Shown: positions 54,618 through 61,209 of the stretch, piece by piece
How positions within the stretch are numbered: the stretch's first letter is position 1
How the letters are laid out: each line of letters opens with the position of its first letter
From: Chromobacterium haemolyticum DSM 19808
GTDB lineage: Bacteria > Pseudomonadota > Gammaproteobacteria > Burkholderiales > Chromobacteriaceae
Direction of reading: 5' to 3'
DNA length: 64,000 nt
Assembly: GCF_000711885.1 (NCBI RefSeq)
Contig: NZ_JONK01000008.1
Coordinates: forward strand, 62,001 to 126,000
Position numbers and translations under genes: made by a program
Notes under the pieces: model-generated
The model's input: only the letters and a program-made list of their open reading frames with translations
Told to the model about the DNA's origin: nothing
The model's database searches: none

Positions 54618-54679
54618 GCAGGCTGTAGTATCTTGCAAATATTCTTGTGTCCAACTTTCGAACATATAAGGACTTCATC

Positions 54680-54949
54680 ATGTTGAAAAAAATCATGCTG
54701 ATCGCTTTGGCTGGCGCACTTTCCGCTCCGGTATTCGCAGCGGAAGAAGCCGCTGCCACCTCCGCCGCGGGCTCTAGCGCTGCCGGTACCACCTCCGCAG
54801 CCGCCGCTGGCGCCGCCGGCACCACTGCTGGCATTGCTGGCTTGAGCGTTGGCACTATTGCTGCTATCGGCGCCGCTGTAGCAGCTGCCGTAGCTGTCTC
54901 GAGCAATAGCGACTCGTCGACCAGCCACTCCGCGACCACTCATCACTAA
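54680..54949 (+). CDS. Small Ala/Ser/Thr-rich secreted protein, YjbE/GfcA-like
   Basis: An 89-residue product with a signal peptide (MLKKIMLIALAGALSAPVFA) and a mature part made almost only of Ala, Gly, Ser and Thr, with a hydrophobic GLSVGTIAAIGAAVAAAVAV stretch and a His/Ser/Thr-rich tail. It resembles in composition and position YjbE and GfcA, the small first members of the yjbEFGH and gfc exopolysaccharide operons, whose roles are unknown. AAGGAC precedes the ATG. A large hairpin separates it from the next gene. Confidence 0.75.
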   Translation: MLKKIMLIALAGALSAPVFAAEEAAATSAAGSSAAGTTSAAAAGAAGTTAGIAGLSVGTIAAIGAAVAAAVAVSSNSDSSTSHSATTHH

Positions 54950-55144: not shown

Positions 55145-58000
55145 GTGTCAATTTCACTTTCTTTGCGCAGCGGGATAATCAAAGGGGTTTTAATTGGCGG
55201 CGCATATTATTATTGCGTGCCACTCGCTTTAGCTCAACCAAGCCTCAATGGTCAGCTTGGCTACATCAATATGCCATCCGCCGATGTTGGCCGCGATGGT
55301 TCTCTGAGCTTTGGTTTTAGCACGGACAAGCCCTATGACACTCTCTGGACCTCCGCCACCATTTTACCATTCCTGGAAGTTTCTGGTCGCTACGTCTCTA
55401 TATCTGGTATTGCTGGTTTCGACAATCAGCAGTATGGCGGAGGTTATGGCAGCTACAAAGACAAGGCCATAGATACAAAGTGGAAGATATTCTCTGAAAC
55501 CTCGACATGGCCAGCCCTATCCTATGGGCGCACAGACATATTTGGCACAGCTTTATGGCGGGGCAACTACATTGTCGCCAGTAAACATATTCTACCTAAT
55601 TTAGAGGCCTCGATTGGATTTGCTTCAGGACGTATTGAAGGCCCCTTTGGCGGGGCTCGGTGGACCCCTCAAAGCTATCCGAATTGGTCACTAGTAGCCG
55701 AATACGACGCCAATAATTACCCAAAAGATTTTCGTGCAGAAGATACCTTTGCCAGCCAAAGAAAAAAGGGCTCGGCAGTTGGCATAGAATACCGTTGGGG
55801 TTGGCTGGGACTACAGCTTGCCAAGCAAAATACCCATACCAGCCTGAATGCCTCCATTGAAATTCCTCTCAATGAGCGGGAATTTGTTCCCAAGATTTCT
55901 GAACCCGCCTACTTCTCAGGCAGCCTGGAAGTGCCGATCCGGCCTACGCTTAGCCAGTGGCAAAACGATACCAGCTATGGCCATCGCTTAGTATCTGCGC
56001 TCAGCCGTCAGGATTTCAAGAATATCCGCATCAGTGTTCAAGGTGATGAGCTGTTGCTGGAGCTCACTAATAGCCGTATTTCCAATGTAGGCCGCGCTGT
56101 TGGTCGCGCGGTGCGTACCGCCCTTTATTTTGCTCCAATAGAAACGCGCAATATCCGCGTCGTATACACCAAGCTGGAGCAGCCTATCGTCACCTATAGT
56201 TTCTTTAATTTGACGGTGCTGAACAATTACTTGCTGGGCAAAGTCGATCGGCAGACTTTCTTGGAAAGCGTCTCGATCAAGCCGGGCAGGGATGCTGAAC
56301 TGGTGGAGCGTTCGGCCGAGCAATTGGCCTCTACCATTCGAGATGGCGTCAGCCTGGAAGTCATGGCAGGCAAAGACGGCGATATTGTCCAGATCAATGC
56401 GGAAGACAATGAGGCCAACCGCTTCCGTCTTGTGCCAAAAACAGGCGTCTATTTTAACGATCCCAGTGGGGCGTTTCGTTATGAGATCGCAGCGGCGGCG
56501 ACCTATACCAAAAGACTGGGCAGCGGCCTATATCTGAACAGCGCCTTGAGCACCAACCTATACAATACGGTTTCTGGCGTTAAACAAGCATCGAATAGCT
56601 TATTGCCTCATGTGCGCTCCGACGTAGCCGATTACAAAAAAACCAATACCCCCAAGCTTGATCGCCTGATGCTCAACCAATACCTGACATTTGGCGCCAA
56701 TACCTATGCGCGGGCCTCTGCTGGTATTTATGAGGAAATGTTCCGTGGCGCAGGCGGTCAAGTCTTGTATTTCCCGGAGACCCGGCACTGGGCGGTAGAC
56801 CTCACTGTCGATGCGCTACAGCAGCGCGACGTCAAAGGCTGGTTCGGCAAGCGCGATTATCAAACCGTAACCGCTCTCGCCGCCCTGCATTACCGGTTGC
56901 CGATGAATGTGACCGCCACCGTCCGCGCCGGGCGTTTTCTGGCCAAAGACATGGGGGCACGTCTCGAGGTAAAACGCCGCTTCCACTCTGGCATAGAAAT
57001 TGGCGCTTGGTATACCAGCACCAATGGCAACGACATCACCTCCCCGGGCACGCCAAGTTCACCTTATAAAGATAAGGGCCTGTTCATATCCATCCCGCTG
57101 AACAGCATGCTGACCTTGGACACTCAAGCTGTTGGTAATTTTTCCTTGTCGCCATGGACTCGGGACGTTGGCCAAATGGTCATGTCCCCTGGCGATCTTT
57201 ACGACATTCTCAGCGATCCTCGTCGTGATGTGGAAATGTATGACGGCCTTGGCAATTTTGCGGAGCGCTCCGATGAGCAGAACCTTCCTGCGGTCAATCC
57301 ACCATTGCCGACCTTCCAGCCCTGGCCTGCGATACGCCTGCGTCTCGAGGATAGCGGCCGGCAATTTTCCCGCCTCGACGACAAGACCAGCGCACTGACA
57401 ACCGCCGCGGGGCTAACCCTGGCAGCCATGGTGCTGGATAAACCCATCAATAAGGCCATCAACCAACGCCAAGATCATCGCCTGCTACGCGGCTGGAAAC
57501 ATATCGGTGATGCCGCTCCTCTCATGGCAATCGGCCTGGCTGGCAGCGCCTTCGCCTTCGGCGATGAGCGTTTGAGCAATACCGGCCTGATTTCCCTTGA
57601 GTCCGCCGCTCTGGCAAGTGCTGGCAGCATGGCATTCAAAGGCTTGGTCAATAGAGCCCGCCCCGATAGCAGTGATAATCCATGGCGAAAGCAAAGCGCC
57701 GATGCCGCCCGCTTCCAGAGCAGCTTCACATCCAACCATGCTGCCGCGCTATTTGGAGCCGTCACCCCCTTTGCCAAAGAATATGACCAGCCTTGGCTCT
57801 ACGGTTTGGCTGCAATTGGCGCGCTCGGCCGGGTTGCCGGCAAAGAACATTGGTTATCGGATGTCGCCGCAGGCAGCCTGATCGGTTATGCCTCCGGCGC
57901 CTGGCTATGGCAGGCTCAGCGAGATGAGTCCCGGTACCGCACCACGATGATGATTGGGCCCAATCAAGCCGGTATCCAAGTTTCGAAATCATTAAACTGA
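55145..58000 (+). CDS. YjbH-domain outer membrane protein fused to a PAP2-type phosphatase
   Basis: A 951-residue product. After a signal peptide (about 1-31) come roughly 690 residues of YjbH-type sequence rich in beta-strand and aromatic girdle patterns (GQLGYINMPSADVGRDGSL, VGIEYRWGWLGLQLAKQNT, DRLMLNQYLTFGANTYARAS), the GfcD/YjbH exopolysaccharide family. From about residue 735 a PAP2 phosphatase domain follows with K832-x6-R839-P840, H865 in SFTSNHAAALFG, and R896-x5-H902-x3-D906, so every catalytic position of the PAP2 motif is present although PSGH reads TSNH and SR reads GR. The start is a GTG at 55145 without a clear ribosome site. The next gene is a Wza-like exporter. Base composition is visibly AT-richer than the flanks. 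Confidence 0.85.
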   Translation: MSISLSLRSGIIKGVLIGGAYYYCVPLALAQPSLNGQLGYINMPSADVGRDGSLSFGFSTDKPYDTLWTSATILPFLEVSGRYVSISGIAGFDNQQYGGGYGSYKDKAIDTKWKIFSETSTWPALSYGRTDIFGTALWRGNYIVASKHILPNLEASIGFASGRIEGPFGGARWTPQSYPNWSLVAEYDANNYPKDFRAEDTFASQRKKGSAVGIEYRWGWLGLQLAKQNTHTSLNASIEIPLNEREFVPKISEPAYFSGSLEVPIRPTLSQWQNDTSYGHRLVSALSRQDFKNIRISVQGDELLLELTNSRISNVGRAVGRAVRTALYFAPIETRNIRVVYTKLEQPIVTYSFFNLTVLNNYLLGKVDRQTFLESVSIKPGRDAELVERSAEQLASTIRDGVSLEVMAGKDGDIVQINAEDNEANRFRLVPKTGVYFNDPSGAFRYEIAAAATYTKRLGSGLYLNSALSTNLYNTVSGVKQASNSLLPHVRSDVADYKKTNTPKLDRLMLNQYLTFGANTYARASAGIYEEMFRGAGGQVLYFPETRHWAVDLTVDALQQRDVKGWFGKRDYQTVTALAALHYRLPMNVTATVRAGRFLAKDMGARLEVKRRFHSGIEIGAWYTSTNGNDITSPGTPSSPYKDKGLFISIPLNSMLTLDTQAVGNFSLSPWTRDVGQMVMSPGDLYDILSDPRRDVEMYDGLGNFAERSDEQNLPAVNPPLPTFQPWPAIRLRLEDSGRQFSRLDDKTSALTTAAGLTLAAMVLDKPINKAINQRQDHRLLRGWKHIGDAAPLMAIGLAGSAFAFGDERLSNTGLISLESAALASAGSMAFKGLVNRARPDSSDNPWRKQSADAARFQSSFTSNHAAALFGAVTPFAKEYDQPWLYGLAAIGALGRVAGKEHWLSDVAAGSLIGYASGAWLWQAQRDESRYRTTMMIGPNQAGIQVSKSLN

Positions 58001-58028: not shown

Positions 58029-59948
58029 ATGAAAAACTTCAAAAATATTTCAAGCGGCATTTCCATCAGCCTGATTGCTGGCATCTTCGCCTTCGGTGCT
58101 GCCTCAGCCCACGCAGCTCCAAATAGCAAATCTGCCGCCGCCGGCTTTTCGGAAACGATGATGCAGGGCTATGACAGTGACCCCTCATTCGGCATGCCCA
58201 ATATTGCCAACCAGCCCCCCTTCCCGAATCAATCTACGCGTTTTGGACAAGCAAACCAAATGCGGCCCGTTCAGGCGCGCAAACAAGAAGAGCAGCAACT
58301 AAGCCCATTTGTTGAGTTTGTCCGGGTGGCAACAGGTAAAACCTTGCCCATTTTTGGCAGCGATCTGTTCAACAACCCGCCATCGACGTTTGCACCCACC
58401 GATGCGGCTCAGGTCAATCCAGATTACATCATCGGGGCGGGAGATCAAATTCAGGTCAAGGGCTGGGGAATGGTCGACATTGACCTGACCTTGACCGTGG
58501 AACGCAACGGCACAGTCTACCTGCCCCGTGTCGGCTCGGTAGCCGTTGCCGGCATCAAGTTCAAGGACTTGCAAGACACTCTCAAGAAAAGCGTTTCTCG
58601 CGTTTTCAACAACTTCGAGCTCAGCGCCAGTCTGCTGCAAGCGCGAGCAGTACAAGTTTATGTGGTCGGCAATGCTCAGGCGCCAGGGAGTTATACCCTG
58701 AGCGGAATGAGCACATTACTGAATGCGCTGTTCGCCTCCGGCGGCCCCAACGACAATGGCTCGATGCGCAACATCCAATTGATGCGCGATGGCAAACTAG
58801 TCGGCACTCTCGACTTGTACAAGATTCTGGTTGATGGCGACAAATCCACCGACCTGACCCTACGTGATGGAGATGTCGTTCGCATCTCCCCTGCCGGTAA
58901 GAGAACGGCTCTGCTAGGCGACGTCAAACACCCCGCGATTTATGAGTTTTCCACCGGAGAAAGCGCCGCGGACTTGTTGCGTTGGGCTGGCGGCCTGGAG
59001 TCCGCCGCGGAAAACAAGGCATGGCGGCTGGAGAAAAATACGGATAACCAATTTGCCTTGCAATGGCAGGCGACCCCGGATACCAGCAACATCAACGCGC
59101 CATCTTTGAAACAACTCAAGCTGGCCGCGGGTGATATTTTCCGAGTATTCGCTCCTGGAGCTTTGCCGGTGGACCTTCGCCAAGAAACCGAGTTTGTCCG
59201 GATCAGCGGCGAAGTCAAACAAACCGGGACTTTTCAACTGCAAAAAGGCGAAACACTGCGCGAGCTAGTCATGCGTTTGGGTGGGGTAACCGAATATGGT
59301 TATATCTTTGCCACTGCCCTGCAGCGTGAAAGTATACGTAAAGAGCAGCAAATCAAGCTGGATCAGGTTGCCTCCCGTTTCGAGAAAGAACTGGAACAAA
59401 CTGCAGCAGCCAGACTCTCCAAACAAACCGACAAAGACAATGTTGCAGCCATCACCGCGGAAGTGGAGCGTCAGCGCAAGTTAGCCGAGAAAATGCGCAC
59501 GGTCAAGGCGGAGGGCAGAGTGGTACTGGAACTCAACGGAGCCGATGCCCAAGTCAAAGACCTACCAGACCTGCCCTTGCAAAATGGAGATACCATCACC
59601 ATTCCACGCCGACCAGGTACCGTCAATGTTTTAGGCGCGGTCTATCAAAGCAATGCTTTCATCTATCGCCCGCAACGCGCGGTTAAAGACTACCTTGATC
59701 TCGCTGGCGGCATCACCCAGACCGGCGATAAGTCCGCCACCTATGTACTCCGGGCGGATGGCACCGTGGCCAGCAACAATAATGCCGGCTGGTTCTCCAG
59801 CTTGGGAGGGAAACGCATCAATCCAGGCGATACCATCGTCGTACCAGACGAAGTCGTCGTCAGCAGTTGGACTCAGTCCTTGAAAGAATGGACCTCGATT
59901 CTCTATCAGTTCGGCTTGGGTGCTGCCGGTCTTAAAGTCCTGAAATAA
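58029..59948 (+). CDS. Polysaccharide export protein, Wza/OPX family
   Basis: Outer membrane polysaccharide export protein of 639 residues. A signal peptide (about 1-29, ending in AHA) has no lipobox Cys, unlike classical Wza. The Poly_export domain begins NPDYIIGAGDQIQVKGWGMVDIDLTLTVE near residue 132, followed by several SLBB-like repeats (VQVYVVGNAQAPGSYTLSG near 207; AGKRTALLGDVKHPAIYEF; FVRISGEVKQTGTFQLQKG). A charged coiled coil (about 435-500) interrupts the repeats, and the C-terminal SWTQSLKEWTSILYQFGLG helix could form the outer membrane pore. It follows the YjbH-PAP2 gene by 28 bases. Confidence 0.92.
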   Translation: MKNFKNISSGISISLIAGIFAFGAASAHAAPNSKSAAAGFSETMMQGYDSDPSFGMPNIANQPPFPNQSTRFGQANQMRPVQARKQEEQQLSPFVEFVRVATGKTLPIFGSDLFNNPPSTFAPTDAAQVNPDYIIGAGDQIQVKGWGMVDIDLTLTVERNGTVYLPRVGSVAVAGIKFKDLQDTLKKSVSRVFNNFELSASLLQARAVQVYVVGNAQAPGSYTLSGMSTLLNALFASGGPNDNGSMRNIQLMRDGKLVGTLDLYKILVDGDKSTDLTLRDGDVVRISPAGKRTALLGDVKHPAIYEFSTGESAADLLRWAGGLESAAENKAWRLEKNTDNQFALQWQATPDTSNINAPSLKQLKLAAGDIFRVFAPGALPVDLRQETEFVRISGEVKQTGTFQLQKGETLRELVMRLGGVTEYGYIFATALQRESIRKEQQIKLDQVASRFEKELEQTAAARLSKQTDKDNVAAITAEVERQRKLAEKMRTVKAEGRVVLELNGADAQVKDLPDLPLQNGDTITIPRRPGTVNVLGAVYQSNAFIYRPQRAVKDYLDLAGGITQTGDKSATYVLRADGTVASNNNAGWFSSLGGKRINPGDTIVVPDEVVVSSWTQSLKEWTSILYQFGLGAAGLKVLK

Positions 59949-59980
59949 GCAATCCGCCGCCTTAACACCTGGAATTGATT

Positions 59981-61168
59981 ATGTCCATGAATGAGAACTC
60001 CATCAGACCACACGACGACTCCGAAGAGATCAATCTTCTGGAAATCATTCGAGTCTTAGTACAGCAAAAATACTGGATTATCGGCAGCACAGCCTGCCTG
60101 GGGGGAGCTGCACTGCTTTTCAGTCTACTCCTGCCTCCCACGTTTACCTCAACCGCAAAAATCTTGCCCCCACAGCAGCAGAGCGCCGGTATGAGTGCCC
60201 TGCTGGGACAGTTAGGCGGCTTGGCCGGAGTTGCCGGCAGCGTCTCTGGACTAAAAAATCCAAACGATCTTTATATCGGTATGCTGCAAAGCAGAACCGT
60301 TGCCGACAATTTGATTCGGCAATTCAAACTAAAGCAGCGCTATCAAACAGACTCTCTGGATGCCACCCGCAAAGAGTTGCAAAACGCCAGCTCAATTACT
60401 AGTGGTAAAGACGGCATAATCACTGTCAGCGTGGATGACTCAGGGCCTCAGTTTGCAGCCAAGCTGGCTAATGCCTATATCGAGCAGCTTATCAAGCTGA
60501 ATCAAAGCCTGGCGGTGACCGACGCGGCCAAACGGCGCCTGTTCTTTGAAAACCAACTCAAGCAAACCAAAGCACAACTTGCCGAAGCGGAAACCGCGCT
60601 GCGCCAAACCCAGGAACGTACCGGCATGATTCAACCGGAAGGACAGGTCTCCGCAATCATGAGTACGGTTACCCAACTCAAAGCGAGTATCGCGGCTAAA
60701 GAAGTACAGTTGGAAGCTATGCGCAGCTATGCAACCGAGCAGAACCCGTTGTACCAGCGTACAAGCCAAGAACTTGCCGGCTTAAAAACCCAACTGGCAA
60801 AAATGGAAACCGGCAAAGAAACCGCTGGTGACGTGATGGTGCCAACCGGCAAAGTGCCTCAGTCTGGCCTTGAATATTTCCGCCGGCTACGGGATGTCAA
60901 ATACCAGGAAACCATCTTTGAGCTGCTCTCCAAACAATACGAACTGGCTCGTATTGAGGAAGCCAAGGACTCGTCTCAAATCCAGGTGCTGGACAAGGCC
61001 GATATCCCGGAACTGAAGAGCAAGCCCAAACGTGCGCAGATCATCATGATGGGCGTCCTTGGGGGGCTGGTAATAGGCATTCTGCTAGCCTTCCTGCGTG
61101 ACCGCATGATTGCCGCCAAGCAGTCCGGGCGCTTACGCGAGTTTGCCTTAGCCTTCAAAGAAAGCTGA
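59981..61168 (+). CDS. Wzz/GNVR-domain chain-length or export co-polymerase, no kinase
   Basis: Inner membrane protein of 395 residues with two membrane helices (about 36-56 and 352-372) enclosing a periplasmic coiled-coil region (about 170-300) and the C-terminal GNVR-type segment RDVKYQETIFELLSKQYELARIEEA near residue 305. The short cytoplasmic tail lacks Walker motifs and a Tyr cluster, so it is a Wzz or PCP-type protein without the autokinase of Wzc. ATG at 59981 preferred; 59987 possible. Last gene of the module, followed by a strong terminator. Confidence 0.9.
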   Translation: MSMNENSIRPHDDSEEINLLEIIRVLVQQKYWIIGSTACLGGAALLFSLLLPPTFTSTAKILPPQQQSAGMSALLGQLGGLAGVAGSVSGLKNPNDLYIGMLQSRTVADNLIRQFKLKQRYQTDSLDATRKELQNASSITSGKDGIITVSVDDSGPQFAAKLANAYIEQLIKLNQSLAVTDAAKRRLFFENQLKQTKAQLAEAETALRQTQERTGMIQPEGQVSAIMSTVTQLKASIAAKEVQLEAMRSYATEQNPLYQRTSQELAGLKTQLAKMETGKETAGDVMVPTGKVPQSGLEYFRRLRDVKYQETIFELLSKQYELARIEEAKDSSQIQVLDKADIPELKSKPKRAQIIMMGVLGGLVIGILLAFLRDRMIAAKQSGRLREFALAFKES

Positions 61169-61173
61169 GCACT

Positions 61174-61209
61174 AAAAAAAACACCACAGCGCTGCTGTGG
61201 TGTTTTTTT
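61174..61209. terminator. Bidirectional terminator after the polysaccharide module
   Basis: ACACCACAGC and GCTGTGGTGT form a perfect 10 bp stem around a 3-base loop, with a run of A before and T after. It can end transcription of the Wzz-like gene and of the convergent exporter gene. Confidence 0.92.

Follow-up and report, generated by a model that had tools for sequence, protein, structure and literature searches.

A YjbH/GfcD-type protein fused to a PAP2 phosphatase domain in Chromobacterium haemolyticum and other betaproteobacteria

The fused gene and its closest described relatives

The closest described relatives of the protein considered here are YjbH and GfcD of Escherichia coli (698 aa each, Pfam family PF06082), encoded in the yjb and gfc operons. 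The passages on GfcD in PMC11494523 present it, from modelling, as an exporter that would release lipid-anchored polysaccharide through a lateral gate in its second barrel, with the C-terminal end folded into that barrel as a plug and the middle domain at the periplasmic entrance; the authors of PMC8592465 state, where they deal with GfcD, that there are no direct data on its function. A PAP2 phosphatase joined to a barrel is described in the LpxE passages of PMC12704123: the Porphyromonas gingivalis enzyme, a lipid A 1-phosphatase, combines a Sec signal, a PAP2 domain and a predicted outer-membrane barrel. Here we report that a single gene of Chromobacterium haemolyticum DSM 19808 joins a complete YjbH/GfcD-type protein to a C-terminal PAP2 domain. 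The gene lies in a stretch of 64,000 nucleotides (contig NZ_JONK01000008.1, positions 62,001 to 126,000), hereafter the window, whose numbering is used throughout.

Pfam analysis identified both halves of the protein well above the family cut-offs: YjbH (PF06082) with E 3e-146 and 489 bits (cut-off 24), in two stretches of which the best spans residues 166–690, and PAP2 (PF01569) with E 2.3e-16 and 60.2 bits (cut-off 27.2) at residues 815–927. At the genome level, the PF06082 matches cover model positions 6–132 and 171–657 of 658. An earlier note, made from the nucleotide sequence alone, had described an uninterrupted frame of 951 residues with YjbH followed by PAP2. We confirm this by the stop-free frame of 951 codons from GTG, by both profiles (that of PAP2 matching after residue 735, as had been foreseen) and by the recurrence of the joined frame in relatives, which also disposes of the objection that a stop or frameshift might separate the halves. 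NCBIfam offers no family for the fusion protein at E 0.1. The best match of the protein among named relatives, at 95% identity over residues 1–951, places it in Chromobacterium close to C. haemolyticum.

Over the dual barrel and the middle domain the protein resembles YjbH and GfcD about equally (26–27% identity, 628–629 aligned positions). The E. coli proteins have no PAP2 domain, and in the alignment both end just before the linker that leads to it in the window's protein. The linker stretch (residues 687–745) is 56–62 residues long across 76 aligned fusions, an alignment that takes in all 78 possible rows (the window and 77 loci of the named collection introduced below) except L136 and L144, which are cut by contig ends. 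Tyr is the final residue in 53 of the 76, after the hairpin predicted in the window's model; it is absent from the window's fusion and from the other Chromobacterium ends compared. As a separate observation, PHROG 13177, a family of unknown function from a viral protein library, matches the YjbH part with E 1.9e-48; thus, some phage record seems to carry a YjbH-like gene.

The PAP2 domain contains the catalytic set K-R, S-H and R-H-D, with K832, R839, H865, R896, H902 and D906 where the earlier note had located them, and with TSNH in place of PSGH and GR in place of SR. Of 93 distinct fusion-type sequences, 91 retain the full set of seven catalytic positions, as do all 11 distinct sequences of a longer type described below (the two types were labelled by a 220-bit threshold on a custom profile of barrel 2). 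Among the 93, the PSGH position reads PSNH in 42, TSNH in 16 (all from the window's genus), PSGH in 13, PSSH in six, PSDL in two, and rarer forms elsewhere. Because of this spread we regard TSNH as one variant among several and not as decay. In five of six Chromobacterium pairs dN/dS of the PAP2 domain is 0.04–0.14 (dS is saturated in the sixth), values that indicate purifying selection. A degenerate PAP2 domain is ruled out by the residue conservation and dN/dS together.

Distribution and evolution of the fusion

Full-length fusions are encoded in 24 of 61 genomes, the window's own included: 17 of 19 in the genus, five in other genera of the family, and two in other families. In a named collection made of the best 80 of 193 relatives (to which a few species contribute two loci), barrel 2 of YjbH and PAP2 share one frame at 77 loci, with carriers that include Chromobacterium, Massilia, Janthinobacterium and Vogesella. 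YjbH stands alone at the other three, from Sulfuricella, Gallionella and Nitrosomonadales metagenome-assembled genomes. A sample of 399 genomes of the order yielded joined frames in at least 34, namely 17 of the window's type and 17 of the longer type; one of the former and several of the latter are cut by contig ends (in G234, one of the latter, only the middle domain and PAP2 are seen), and a fragment of 168 codons in G181 was left out. Among the candidates scored in the class sample (369 genomes), the only frame matching both parts was that of the window's own genome, and among those scored in the phylum sample (398 genomes, E 1e-10 or better) joined frames occurred only in that genome and in G091, both of the order. 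Since at most two first-look candidates were scored per genome, the order, class and phylum counts are lower bounds. Plasmid records gave 194 matches, none covering 80% of the query; the 25 best of them fall within query residues 3–733 and are annotated as YjbH domain proteins. The fusion is therefore widespread in betaproteobacteria rather than a singular oddity, and the order sample rules out that it is unique to one genome.

We found no separate PAP2 gene beside the unfused YjbH of L141–L143 (flanks of about 8 kb where the contig allows), nor beside that of L052–L054, L056 and L147–L160 (flanks of about 1.5 kb or less). Two genomes show other arrangements. G293 encodes a fusion-type PAP2 module in a separate frame of 374 codons (L180:5748-6869) and YjbH in a frame of 1057 codons (L181:2676-5846), on different contigs. 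In G140 the fusion profile aligns across a single TAG stop where the YjbH part ends, and its 5.1 kb locus (L052) yielded no PAP2 domain.

The longer type occurs in other families of the order, where the PAP2 module ends long open frames, the eight complete ones having 1226–1522 codons. A GfcC-like part, YjbH and PAP2 follow one another in one polypeptide (L161–L166 and L169, also L167 and L168), and Pfam GfcC_C exceeds its cut-off at the N-terminus of the two tested. An extra middle-domain match separates barrel 2 from PAP2 in seven of nine; in the other two, barrel 2 leads straight to PAP2. The YjbH part of L161 is 37–38% identical to E. coli YjbH and GfcD, against 26–27% for that of the window. 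In a midpoint-rooted tree of barrel 2 (79 rows, with 47 of the 93 fusion rows kept after thinning by similarity, and 22 unfused rows that include one gene twice, as L027 and L030), the long type groups with unfused YjbH, across a branch with 100/100 support from the window's type, in a bootstrap not fully settled. In a tree of PAP2 domains (107 rows), those of both architectures lie close together, the standalone L028 and L029 have branch lengths near 3.1, and the long-type domains form two starred groups (nine rows including L059, and two rows) instead of one. The same PAP2 module is thus found on two deep YjbH branches. The unfused members L142 and L143 are nested among fused ones, which also implies losses or further gains of the module. 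On the simplest reading of these trees, a specialised PAP2 module either became fused to YjbH or passed from one YjbH branch to another on more than one occasion, the direction not being settled.

Operon and genomic context

The fusion gene is the second of an operon with the order YjbE-like protein, YjbH–PAP2, outer-membrane polysaccharide export (OPX) protein with a GfcC-like stretch, and Wzz-like polysaccharide co-polymerase (PCP) (Table 1). The combination of a small YjbE/GfcA protein, OPX and GfcC that characterizes the export operons of YjbH and GfcD is thus present here as in the yjb and gfc operons, in which yjbF/gfcB and yjbG/gfcC are separate genes; a profile search found no YjbF lipoprotein in the genome. 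The YjbE-like gene is preceded by AAGGA just 5' of its ATG (the listed open reading frame (ORF) starts at 54647) and ends 195 bases upstream of the fusion gene, which is followed after 28 bases by the OPX gene and this after 26 bases by the PCP gene. Compared by eye, the YjbE-like protein shares with E. coli YjbE and GfcA a common make-up of signal peptide, S/T/A/G-rich sequence and S/T-rich tail; Pfam gives nothing above cut-off for it.

The GfcC-like stretch of the OPX protein matches Pfam GfcC_C below the cut-off; in a phmmer comparison with four sequences only, the best stretches are 454–578 with E. coli GfcC (5.8e-7) and 456–588 with YjbG (5.4e-8). With its SLBB repeats it is like the class 2 OPX proteins with C-terminal GfcC modules in the account of PMC9603273, which pairs OPX with barrel porins and whose main text, by a term search, does not mention PAP2. 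In the PCP protein Pfam finds the Wzz and GNVR parts and no tyrosine-kinase domain; in E. coli, by contrast, the gfc operon includes a kinase, Etk. A hairpin and T-run after the PCP stop, read directly from the sequence, probably terminate the operon; they are absent from the list of the promoter and terminator scan, whose results were no better than chance.

By profile the genome has two OPX genes, one in the window and one in a cluster on contig C20. Contig C14 of the same genome carries at a contig end a polysaccharide-type cluster (L176, 1-14000) with a sugar transferase, glycosyltransferase-like genes and a Wzy match below cut-off. Because the only other OPX gene belongs to the C20 cluster, the window's operon may export the polymer of the C14 cluster.

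Across the named collection, an OPX relative lies directly downstream on the same strand at 33 of 80 loci (in broken pieces at L082). Most Massilia loci have no adjacent OPX; one such fusion (L083) lies, by eye, among glycosyltransferase- and flippase-like genes, and matches to the small gene on the minus strand near Massilia loci look like low complexity and were disregarded. Co-occurrence of OPX was tested in nine genomes, namely three with the fusion (of 17 in the genus), both genus members without it, and four of 13 fusion-free members elsewhere in the family. The OPX orthologue is absent from both genus members that lack the fusion (G010 and G011, the latter having only a 30% relative), and the four from elsewhere in the family gave no match.

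Table 1. Features of the YjbH–PAP2 locus (window numbering; residues refer to the fusion protein)
Feature	Positions	Strand	Basis and remarks
Small secreted Ala/Ser/Gly-rich protein, like E. coli YjbE/GfcA	54680..54949	+	ORF list, sequence
YjbH–PAP2 fusion protein	55145..58000	+	951 aa, GTG start; Shine-Dalgarno not clear by eye
Signal peptide, residues 1–31 (...PLALA/QPS)	55145..55237	+	Assigned by eye; similar start in relatives
N-terminal beta-barrel region of YjbH, about residues 32–250	55238..55894	+	Pfam; model strands 53–241
Middle alpha/beta domain, GfcD-M-like, about residues 262–425	55928..56419	+	Model; custom profile
C-terminal YjbH beta-barrel region and conserved stretch ending E. 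coli YjbH/GfcD, about residues 430–690	56432..57214	+	Pfam, model, alignment
YjbH-to-PAP2 linker, residues 691–745	57215..57379	+	Low-confidence model stretch
PAP2 phosphatase domain, residues 746–930	57380..57934	+	Pfam, predicted fold, Foldseek
Catalytic positions K832, R839, S863, H865, R896, H902, D906	57638..57862	+	Conservation in alignments
C-terminal beta-hairpin, residues 931–951	57935..57997	+	Model strands 932–937, 942–947; low confidence
OPX (Wza-type) export protein: Poly_export, SLBB repeats, GfcC-like stretch near C-terminus	58029..59948	+	Pfam, phmmer
Wzz/GNVR chain-length (PCP) protein	59975..61168	+	Pfam
Hairpin then T-run, likely operon terminator, after PCP stop	61180..61209	+	Sequence read directly

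Predicted structure and possible role of the PAP2 domain

An AlphaFold model of the whole chain (mean pLDDT 78, pTM 0.71) has two strand-rich regions, taken as the predicted barrels, and a C-terminal helical bundle, with predicted strands at 53–241 and 426–649 and an alpha/beta region at 269–420 between them. Whole-chain Foldseek returned, among the 50 matches listed, mostly outer-membrane barrels with low TM-score, uninformative on PAP2. For the PAP2 part modelled alone (pLDDT 86, pTM 0.82), 5jki, a lipid-phosphate phosphatase, ranks first with E 1.6e-3, PhoC and LpxE are also found, none is at or below 1e-3, and of the 50 matches listed LpxE (6ebu) has the highest TM-score normalised to the target, 0.70. 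The domain shares its predicted fold and catalytic set with the integral-membrane enzymes (PgpB, LpxE 6ebu, Bacillus subtilis 5jki), which stand alone and have more hydrophobic helices, whereas it is fused. On the Kyte–Doolittle scale no segment of the window's domain reaches the threshold (KD19 >=1.6), against three to four in the membrane PAP2 controls L033, L031 and L032; its best insertion-energy windows are 5.9–9.4, compared with 1.5–5.6 in L033, a separate hydrophobic membrane PAP2 of the same genome. The domain thus lacks the several hydrophobic transmembrane helices of enzymes of the PgpB/LpxT/BcrC type. Because it follows the point at which E. coli YjbH and GfcD end and is without hydrophobicity of inner-membrane grade, its most likely place is the mouth of the second barrel on the periplasmic side.

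We tentatively propose that the fusion is an outer-membrane polysaccharide-export protein of the YjbH/GfcD type with a phosphatase of its own, which would remove phosphate from the lipid anchor or the chain end of its cargo; from outer-membrane location to catalytic activity, substrate and order of events, we infer the following picture. The two beta-barrels would lie in the outer membrane with the middle domain beneath them and PAP2 at the periplasmic mouth of the second. The polysaccharide would be loaded from the OPX/PCP conduit into the second barrel, PAP2 would strip phosphate from its lipid anchor or phosphorylated end during loading, and this dephosphorylation would settle in what form the polymer arrives at the surface. 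That export is coupled to phosphate removal at the envelope, as the earlier note had suggested, is in our view the best reading of the fusion, the catalytic set and the operon, both activity and substrate being putative. A more specific version, in which a betaproteobacterial portal for lipid-anchored polysaccharide carries a built-in lipid-phosphate phosphatase and has, as a committed step of export, the dephosphorylation at its periplasmic gate of the anchor or chain end, is rather unlikely.

Several observations weigh against this proposal. At 47 of 80 loci, some of them near contig ends, there is no OPX gene directly downstream. Unfused YjbH is common (at least 14 genomes in the order sample and at least 27 in the class sample), so that YjbH proteins can do without the phosphatase. 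In one lineage the catalytic His has given way to Leu (PSDL in L044 and L055 of genus g33), and of the 76 aligned fusions, 20 contain segments at the hydrophobicity threshold (none in 56, one in 14, two in six). Sequence profiles place class A acid phosphatases of the PhoN/PhoC type closest among solved structures (9htz, whose title announces a new class A acid phosphatase, is first with E 1.5e-6, and 1d2t is another), with LpxE only at E 0.17. Finally, the lipid-anchor export model of GfcD rests, in the relevant passages of PMC11494523, on simulation.

Two other accounts of the domain are unlikely, to a similar degree. The first is that it is a resident outer-membrane lipid phosphatase like LpxE of P. 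gingivalis, acting on lipid A or phospholipid around the portal, with YjbH as anchor and address and the polymer not a substrate. The predicted fold close to PgpB and LpxE in Foldseek speaks for it, as do the likenesses to P. gingivalis-type LpxE as described in PMC12704123, where PAP2 domains with helices of reduced hydrophobicity are likewise joined to a predicted outer-membrane beta-barrel behind a Sec signal. The passages of PMC12704123 on these enzymes give the reverse order, an N-terminal PAP2 followed by a small, different barrel of eight predicted strands, and name no polysaccharide-export operon. Moreover, the YjbH half of the fusion is a full-length conserved export protein and not a small anchor, and the fusion often adjoins OPX and PCP genes. 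Also, the Lpt path delivers lipid A into the outer leaflet, distant from the periplasmic face.

The second is that the domain is an acid phosphatase of soluble type, which strips phosphate substituents or a reducing-end phosphate from free polymer, or acts on small phosphoesters, at the portal. Given the profile preference for class A acid phosphatases, a soluble substrate fits as well; the window's domain has no segment of inner-membrane-grade hydrophobicity, and the standalone PAP2 protein L029 has a start resembling a signal peptide. Class A acid phosphatases are free enzymes not known to be joined to a barrel. Against this reading, Foldseek ranks a membrane lipid phosphatase first. A weak further argument against a soluble-type enzyme is that moderate hydrophobicity extends over five windows (5.9–9.4) in the window's domain and over only three in the acid-phosphatase-like L035 of the same genome (3.0, 5.1, 6.5, then 11.7 and 14.4), in which the signal peptide is the sole segment over the Kyte–Doolittle threshold. 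In favour of the soluble-type reading, membrane PAP2 enzymes appear to have given rise to soluble ones in the account of PMC12419801, whose main text, by a term check, contains neither YjbH nor GfcD. As Foldseek and the sequence profiles thus point to different relatives, we leave the choice between a lipid and a soluble substrate open, with a lean to lipid.

Less probable still is that PAP2 serves as a structural plug or assembly module for which catalysis is irrelevant. The PSDL lineage, to which L127 of the aligned 76 also belongs (its first 60 PAP2 residues are identical to those of L044), keeps the domain and the remaining catalytic positions after replacement of His by Leu, as such a role would allow; conservation of all seven positions in nearly every fusion-type and every long-type sequence, together with the low dN/dS, argues against it. 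Recycling of undecaprenyl pyrophosphate coupled to export, the substrate named in the earlier note, is very improbable. PAP2 enzymes do this work in the inner membrane, where the carrier is located; the predicted outer-membrane barrel, the linker of 56–62 residues and the weak hydrophobicity would place the domain away from that carrier, and the genome also encodes L033, a hydrophobic membrane PAP2 outside the fusion. Assembly error, frameshift or chance joining of two genes is ruled out, for all practical purposes, by the same architecture at 77 of 80 named loci and in 24 of 61 relatives.

The matches listed in our literature searches, which hardly reached into subscription journals, include no description of a YjbH–PAP2 fusion, and the only one mentioning both YjbH and PAP2 is a Staphylococcus genome paper. 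The claim that the fusion is the best candidate here for an undescribed mechanism is thus fair as regards function; as an architecture the fusion is widespread, and the P. gingivalis LpxE analogue has been published (PMC12704123).

The proposal that the fusion is an export protein with its own phosphatase bears on what YjbH and GfcD carry and on how group 4-like polymers are released from their lipid carrier. With a conserved phosphatase in the portal, attention turns to a phosphate carried by the cargo or by a nearby lipid, and H865 offers a single-residue handle on the role of the phosphatase. If the more specific version, with its committed dephosphorylation step, is true, the lipid-anchor model, so far a matter of simulation, would gain genomic support from the repeated joining of one PAP2 module to two deep branches of YjbH.

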